From Candidatus Methanimicrococcus labiotermitis (GTDB lineage: Archaea > Halobacteriota > Methanosarcinia > Methanosarcinales > Methanosarcinaceae): a stretch of DNA of 64,000 nucleotides. The notes below the pieces were generated by a model. That model worked only from the letters and a program-made list of their open reading frames with translations, made no database searches and was not told where the DNA came from. Location of the stretch: the NCBI GenBank assembly GCA_009784005.1, contig WRCE01000006.1, positions 1 to 64,000 of the forward strand. The letters are read 5' to 3'. Within the stretch, counting starts at the first letter, position 1, and each line of letters starts with the position of its first letter. Shown piece by piece: positions 19,080 to 20,821 of the stretch. The position numbers and the translations under genes were made by a program.

Positions 19080-19985
19080 ATGTCTTTATTTGCAGGCGCG
19101 ATCGTTTTGCCATTGTTTCAGGTCATTGCAGCTATAGTTTTTTTTATCGTCATCATTTTTATGTTGCTGTGTGTGATTTTTATGTTTGTTTCCGTTCCGG
19201 AAATTCGGGTTTTGTTCAAAGCGGCCCATTTCAAAAAATACGTGCTTTTTAATCATTCATCATATGCGGTCGCAAAGATTTCTGCCGTCAAAATATCAGA
19301 CGTCAGTCTCAAACCTCTTCAAAATGAGGCAAAATTCCGGCCGCGCGGCAAAGACGATGTTGAAAGGACTGATAAAATACGGTGGATCCATTCTCACGAG
19401 ATGACGCCTTATCCAATTTCGTCAACCACTGCGTACATTGTCGACAAATTCGTTGGTGCGCTCAAAAGTGCCGGTCTCAGTCCATCCATATCAAACATAG
19501 ACGCTATTCTGCGTTGCGGATTAGACGAATCTCAGATGATCGGTTATGTGGACGATTATATCACGGAAGAAAATCCGGTTTTGGATGCAGACGGCAATCC
19601 TACATTTGATGTAATTACAGACGCAGAAGGAAACGTCTTCAAGAAAGCAATTTTTGAACGCAAGGTCACTAAAAAAACATATCAGATGCAGGTTTCGGAC
19701 GATGAAATGGTAGAATTGAAGAAGCTGAAATTGAAATTGGAGATGACGTGGGTAGGAATTGATTCTGGCGGCTCTGATATTTTTTCGTATTCCCATTTAG
19801 GTCAAGTGGTCAATATTTTGATGGCCGGAACGCCGGCCACAGTTGACGATCTGCAACATATCGCAGAGAGACATGGCATTATGAAAAGCCGAATCGATAA
19901 CAAAAACCTCATGTTGTACGCGATCGTTGCCTTCATTCTGGTGATCGCCGGCGGGACGTTTTTACGCTTCGTGGGGGTCGTATGA
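19080..19985 (+). CDS. Membrane-anchored hypothetical virion-region protein
   Basis: 301-aa ORF with N- and C-terminal TM segments; stop overlaps next ATG. Confidence 0.65.
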   Translation: MSLFAGAIVLPLFQVIAAIVFFIVIIFMLLCVIFMFVSVPEIRVLFKAAHFKKYVLFNHSSYAVAKISAVKISDVSLKPLQNEAKFRPRGKDDVERTDKIRWIHSHEMTPYPISSTTAYIVDKFVGALKSAGLSPSISNIDAILRCGLDESQMIGYVDDYITEENPVLDADGNPTFDVITDAEGNVFKKAIFERKVTKKTYQMQVSDDEMVELKKLKLKLEMTWVGIDSGGSDIFSYSHLGQVVNILMAGTPATVDDLQHIAERHGIMKSRIDNKNLMLYAIVAFILVIAGGTFLRFVGVV

Positions 19986-20821
19986 CAGACGGAATGTACG
20001 AAACAAACGACATGGGTTTCGTTTACGCAATGCAGAGATGCATTGCGGATGTCTGTGATTCAACTGCGTGGTTGACAACAGCGATGGCCAGAAATTTTGT
20101 TGATGCGAATGGCCGTGTTACATACGACGACACGAGAGCCGAGGCTTATCAAAAATTTTTTTTTGACATCAATCGGATGTATCGTTATTGCGCAGAGATA
20201 TTGCCGGACGATCTGAAAAAGGAAGTCCGGGCTTACATTGAAAAAGAAAAACTCGTTTCTGCGCCGAACGCAATCAGCGTTGATTCCGCGGTCAGACTCG
20301 TTGAAAAAATGCAAGAACATGTTCAGCGCATGGGTTTGAAAAACACATTGGTTGACATCGATACGTTTGATTTTGAATGTTACCTGCAGTAGGTTGAAGA
20401 AGAGGAAGAGCAGGCAGAAACAAAAGTCGAAATGGTTGATGAGTATGATCCGTTTGATGATGCCATCGACATTGTTGGTTTTTCACAAAAATCGGAATAT
20501 GCCTACATGTTTACTAATTATACAAATCGCACGTTCCATCTGCTGAGTCACGGCAAGGTCGATGAGGCGATGTGTTTTTTTTATAACGTTCTCGGTGATT
20601 TTGCCGTTATTTTTGATAAAACATTTTTGAAAAATTGCATCAATATTCGAAACCGGATCGTTGTCGGGGATTTATCAAAAAGCGACTACATCAACGTTTA
20701 TCATTTGCAAAAAGCACAGTTTTCAAGATTGATGATTCGAGCGCATGTTTGTCTGCAGCCTGATGTTCATGACAACAGATTCCCGTCTTATGATCCTGCG
20801 CAGAAGCCGGGAGGAATATAA
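19982..20821 (+). CDS. Hypothetical structural-region protein with one in-frame TAG (20390-20392)
   Basis: ORFs 19982..20392 and 20432..20821 are in the same frame; read-through ...DTFDFECYLQ-[TAG]-VEEEEEQAETKVEMVDEYDPFDDAIDIVGFSQ.... The second ORF lacks an evident ribosome-binding site near its ATG. Confidence 0.7.

Follow-up and report, generated by a model that had tools for sequence, protein, structure and literature searches.

Results

Layout of the locus

The window, that is, the whole stretch of 64,000 nucleotides analysed (contig 6, positions 1-64000, of a 1.69 Mb host genome), contained two open reading frames in a common frame, ORF A (19982..20392, + strand; 136 aa) and ORF B (20432..20821, + strand; 129 aa). 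ORF A ended in ...FDFECYLQ followed by a TAG (20390..20392, +), which was the end of A by homology and a candidate pyrrolysine (Pyl) codon in this host. The spacer between the TAG and B (20393..20431, +; 39 nt) was stop-free and 82% purine, had no SD for B, and would read VEEEEEQAETKVE if translated; from the TAG, the frame continued for 142 codons to a TAA with no other stop. A preliminary description of this DNA had given the same coordinates, common frame, TAG and spacer, all of which were confirmed on the sequence, as was the ATGA overlap at 19982 between the start of A and the preceding stop. That stop belonged to a 301-aa protein (19080..19985, +) with a C-terminal hydrophobic segment, which overlapped A by 4 nt. 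Downstream, a P-loop ATPase (20823..21692, +; 289 aa) began close after the TAA of B, as described, with a gap of 1 nt and not 2, and was followed by a possible winged-helix protein (21710..22195, +) syntenic with L025:5205-5576.

A and B were both predicted as four helices, though no sequence relationship between them was detectable. Structure models from two-sequence alignments reached a pLDDT of 68 for A and 70 for B. Foldseek comparison of the two with viral models returned nothing below E 0.35, and neither had a family match in PHROGs or Pfam.

The surrounding element

The 3' end of a tRNA-Asp gene (candidate attL, 11260..11286, +) and its 27-nt repeat (candidate attR, 30726..30752, +; 89%) bounded an element of about 19.5 kb. 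Adjoining the tRNA was a tyrosine recombinase (integrase; 11366..12340, - strand; 324 aa) with in-frame TAGs at 12047-12049 and 11846-11848; its frame was open but for these two codons, with no TAA or TGA and no frameshift. Integrase relatives had varied sense residues at both TAG positions, and a relative from the same genus (L067) had one TAG, at a different position. Across the integrase matches of the family search, TAG accounted for six in-frame stops and TAA for one, and TGA did not occur.

The ATPase was related to the DnaA-like proteins found in spindle-shaped viruses of archaea. Its relatives gave matches in 10 of 113 family genomes, the host's own included, and one of them (L010) matched DnaA-like proteins of Haloferax LSV-48N and Sulfolobales Mexican fusellovirus 1. 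In a small search, the window ATPase itself matched that of LSV-48N (E 3e-7); a direct search of phage or plasmid records returned no match for it. These features point to a spindle-virus-like provirus. The kinship with DnaA-like spindle-virus proteins leads away from a packaging ATPase in a virion operon; the virion/ATPase operon and the structural or assembly role proposed in the preliminary description were not supported, the ATPase being nearest to DnaA-like proteins and A and B having no family or fold match.

Among the other genes of the element, one (13529-14431, +) strongly matched a PHROG family of viral DNA topoisomerases (E 1e-106), and another (16671-17108, -) encoded a type IV leader peptidase-like protein (Peptidase_A24). 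A 116-aa protein (17886-18236) had two hydrophobic segments (two-transmembrane) and no Pfam match; the ends of a 368-aa protein (22781-23887) resembled these segments, with a large insert between them. Both matched L025:1377-1697 and are capsid-like candidates. An array of repeats of about 14 nt (GAAAAACGGTAAGC-like) lay just outside the element (9402-9653).

Ribosome-binding site and spacer

Duplex energy with the anti-SD, for which the usual archaeal sequence was used from general knowledge, was -9.3 kcal/mol for A, -10.0 for the ATPase and -8.4 for the ORF at 19080, versus -3.0 for B. The earlier observation that ATG 20432 lacks a ribosome-binding site was thus borne out; internal ATGs of host genes had a median of -2.6, so that the ATG of B resembled an internal ATG. 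Energies weaker than -3.5 were found for 7 of the 46 second genes in host tandem pairs with gaps of 15-80 nt.

The spacer was coding-like, as had been noted, and only in the frame of A and B (0.58 bits/codon; -0.44 and -0.32 in the other frames). Its score was equalled by 4 of 46 real spacers and by 35% of coding windows. Ordinary cases would therefore look alike in about 15% for the missing SD and about 9% for the coding-like spacer. Together, the loss of the SD of B and the coding-like spacer hint at more than noise, the signal being modest and its two parts not wholly independent. An in-frame open spacer alone was not rare, since 4 of 22 host pairs (about 18%) with a non-TAG stop and a gap of 15-80 nt had one; it was rare when combined with a TAG.

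The relative module in MAG SBSPR1A

Homologues were searched with an A-X-B query against 113 family genomes and with a B query against 397 phylum genomes. Only one other module with A and B was found, on contig JAIPUR010000039.1 of the Methanosarcinaceae MAG SBSPR1A, a host in which PylS was also present. No further B was found in the 397 phylum genomes, a contig scan of genomes returned SBSPR1A only, and no relatives turned up in viral contigs, for which A, B and alignments of B and of the ATPase served as queries. Gene order in SBSPR1A was that of the window: a 323-aa ORF in L005, A' (also in L005), B', ATPase' and a possible winged helix. The 301-aa ORF of the window occupied the place of the 323-aa ORF, a correspondence of position only, with no sequence match.

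A matched A' weakly, though clearly, with 20% identity (BLASTP E 3e-5, an E-value that applies to a single comparison; 0 of 1000 shuffles reached the score). The match reached ECYL, one residue before the window TAG and two before the TGA of A', A ending in ECYLQ-TAG and A' in ECYLND-TGA. The match of B to B' was stronger (BLASTP E 1e-13), and the ATG of B' aligned with 20432 within one residue. B' had its own ATG, in a frame other than that of A' and overlapping A' by 8 nt, with an SD energy of -6.7 and an in-frame TAA directly before the ATG. The two-gene state is thus real in the SBSPR1A relative. Because the end of A' and the start of B' coincide with those in the window, the TAG is the natural end of A, and not a break in an old single gene.

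The proposal that a single gene fits the operon was not supported by this relative (n = 1), in which A' and B' each had their own start and did not share a frame. In the 113 family genomes, no relative was found in which A and B were fused and a sense codon stood in place of the TAG. Separately encoded homologues had been named in advance as evidence against the proposal; the one found counts against an original single gene, and leaves read-through at the junction unrefuted. Standalone ORFs of about 130 aa preceding the ATPase at seven other loci were considered as B homologues and rejected (profile probability 0.5%, not significant); their separateness was therefore not counted as homologue evidence.

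Pyrrolysine machinery and TAG use in the host

Absence of pyl genes had likewise been named beforehand as grounds for rejection. The host carried tRNA-Pyl(CUA), PylS, PylB, PylC and PylD together, a complete pylTSBCD cluster (PylS, 378 bits; PylB, PylC and PylD each over cut-off; tRNA-Pyl with CTA).

TAG use was counted in 854 kb of the host genome, sampled as stretches, among ORFs of at least 120 aa. TAG was the stop in 27 of 629 ORFs (4.3%). In-frame run-on of at least 100 codons followed 12 of the 27 TAG ORFs and 27 of 596 TAA/TGA ORFs (Fisher p = 6e-9). The 12 with long extensions included the A/B junction, MtmB, MtbB, MttB, PstA, Mem_trans and an M50 peptidase; the other 15 had extensions of 2-33 codons, with one of 73, and looked like stops. 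TAG was also the stop of related ATPase genes in Pyl hosts, where the frame ran on for 13, 4 and 2 codons.

In MtmB, MtbB, MttB, PstA, the Mem_trans/auxin carrier and the M50 peptidase, the TAG lay inside a single domain, as it did in the integrase of the provirus. PstA (L059:14251-15153, -) matched TIGR00974 over 24-294 with the TAG at residue 184, and family matches spanned the TAG of the Mem_trans/auxin carrier (L048:1272-2192, +) and of the M50 peptidase (L043:12064-14088, -). TAG thus appears to be read as sense in several host genes outside methylamine use, and the internal TAGs of PstA, the Mem_trans/auxin carrier and the M50 peptidase suggest a wider Pyl proteome. The window TAG is placed by its alignments at a gene boundary, unlike those of the integrase and PstA. 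Elsewhere in the host, a frame of about 3060 codons (L029:4326-13505, -) was split solely by one TAG, after codon 1717.

Discussion

Two genes proposed to be joined by a readable TAG

The reading preferred here is that two ancestral genes now lie in frame, and that the TAG between them may act as a stop or as a Pyl codon, with A and a predicted A-Pyl-B fusion as products. Its probability was put at about 0.55, a value which, like the other gradings in this text, is a judgement and not a computed posterior; the same rough value was given to read-through as a real source of the B domain. In outline, the integrated virus-like element would originally have encoded A and B as separate proteins, both small and helical, and in this lineage B would have come into the frame of A, with A ending in TAG. 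As the host presumably charges tRNA-Pyl and decodes TAG with no known required signal, the end of A would become a choice point. Termination would yield A (136 aa), and insertion of pyrrolysine would yield A-Pyl-B (279 aa); initiation at ATG 20432 might add a little B on its own.

Read-through at the TAG of A is credible given the complete pyl set, the TAGs inside host genes and the two-TAG integrase; we infer it, as we do its efficiency and the usefulness of a fusion. Insertion of pyrrolysine is reported to require no cis element, and competition between the release factor and tRNA-Pyl has been proposed (review, PMC8211752); TAG stops are kept rare in Pyl hosts (PMC4153887). On these grounds, some A-Pyl-B is likely to be made. 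The fusion is not required by anything, since A' and B' are made as two proteins in the sole clear relative, and the ATG of B stands at a conserved start. Also weighing against the preferred reading are the ordinary-looking TAG stops of the host (15 of 629 ORFs) and of related ATPase genes, the existence of some true genes with no SD, and the roughly 18% chance of an in-frame spacer in close pairs.

Alternative explanations

The main rival is an ordinary operon, in which A stops at the TAG, weak or coupled initiation at ATG 20432 gives B, the common frame is coincidental and any read-through is noise. The split homologue with the same end of A and start of B is what this explanation expects, TAG stops occur in the host and in related elements, and 4 of 22 close pairs had an in-frame open spacer by chance. 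It accounts less well for the missing SD of B, with comparably weak sites in only 7 of 46 host genes, and for a spacer that is coding-like in one frame next to a rare TAG. Moreover, where a family match allowed a judgement on other in-frame TAG pairs with gaps of this size (MtbB, MtmB, M50 peptidase and Mem_trans), the pair lay each time within one protein. The ordinary operon is graded as a serious possibility at somewhat below even odds.

That A-Pyl-B is one ancient gene with an essential internal pyrrolysine, the two-ORF form of the relative being derived, would be in line with the internal TAGs of the integrase and several host genes. An internal Pyl codon predicts neither a TAG at the shared C-terminus of A and A' nor an ATG at the shared N-terminus of B and B'; the SD of B' (-6.7), the TAA just before its ATG and the failure to find a sense-codon fusion in 113 family genomes argue in the same direction, and this explanation is very improbable. 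Decay, with the TAG as a nonsense mutation in a degenerating provirus, has the two TAGs of the integrase and the pseudogenes of gut Methanosarcinales (PMC11362671) to recommend it and is hardly credible where interruptions are TAG only, the integrase has no frameshift, TAA or TGA, A and B are complete relative to A' and B', and the adjoining reading frames are open, most of them with a strong SD.

Comparison with known systems

In Methanosarcinaceae, Pyl decoding is described for MtmB, MtbB and MttB, and also for transposases and Thg1 (PMC8211752). The A/B junction shares with these the host machinery, the codon and the lack of an obvious cis signal, and differs in that its TAG lies in a provirus, not in an active site, and at the boundary of proteins that are separate in a relative. 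For Ca. Methanomethylophilus alvus, 16 further Pyl proteins were predicted (PMC4153887); low use of TAG as a stop and TAG in genes outside methylamine use are common to both, whereas the present host belongs to Methanosarcinaceae and the case concerns a gene junction, not a gene with a sense codon in its relatives.

The spindle-shaped viruses LSV-48N and Sulfolobales Mexican fusellovirus 1 share with the element the DnaA-like ATPase relatives, a small protein with two transmembrane segments, and a tRNA gene beside which a tyrosine integrase lies. For neither A nor B was a relative found in spindle-shaped viruses, and their capsid proteins had no sequence match. In the coats of RNA phages and plant viruses, read-through of a stop codon gives two lengths of a viral protein. 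The likeness lies in a short and a C-terminally extended product from one mRNA; at the A/B junction decoding would use tRNA-Pyl, both products are predicted, and a coat function is unsupported.

Implications

Should A-Pyl-B indeed be produced, this would be a gene boundary at which a virus-like element and a host that decodes Pyl come together, and it would show how a leaky stop, when read through, can link two genes and render an element dependent on pyrrolysine. It is further conceivable, and at present unlikely, that the provirus uses host Pyl decoding at the junction as a switch: charged tRNA-Pyl, as during growth on methylamine, would give tethered A-Pyl-B, and otherwise A alone would be made, with little B. 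Were such a switch and decoding of the two-TAG integrase both true, gene expression of the provirus would depend on the Pyl status of the host. Some archaea have recently been reported to decode every TAG as pyrrolysine; were that so in this host, the fusion would be the main product. The junction also bears on how Pyl hosts distinguish TAG as a stop from TAG as a codon. The junction, the two-TAG integrase and the TAG genes with short extensions lie in one genome, and are directly comparable in a single proteome.
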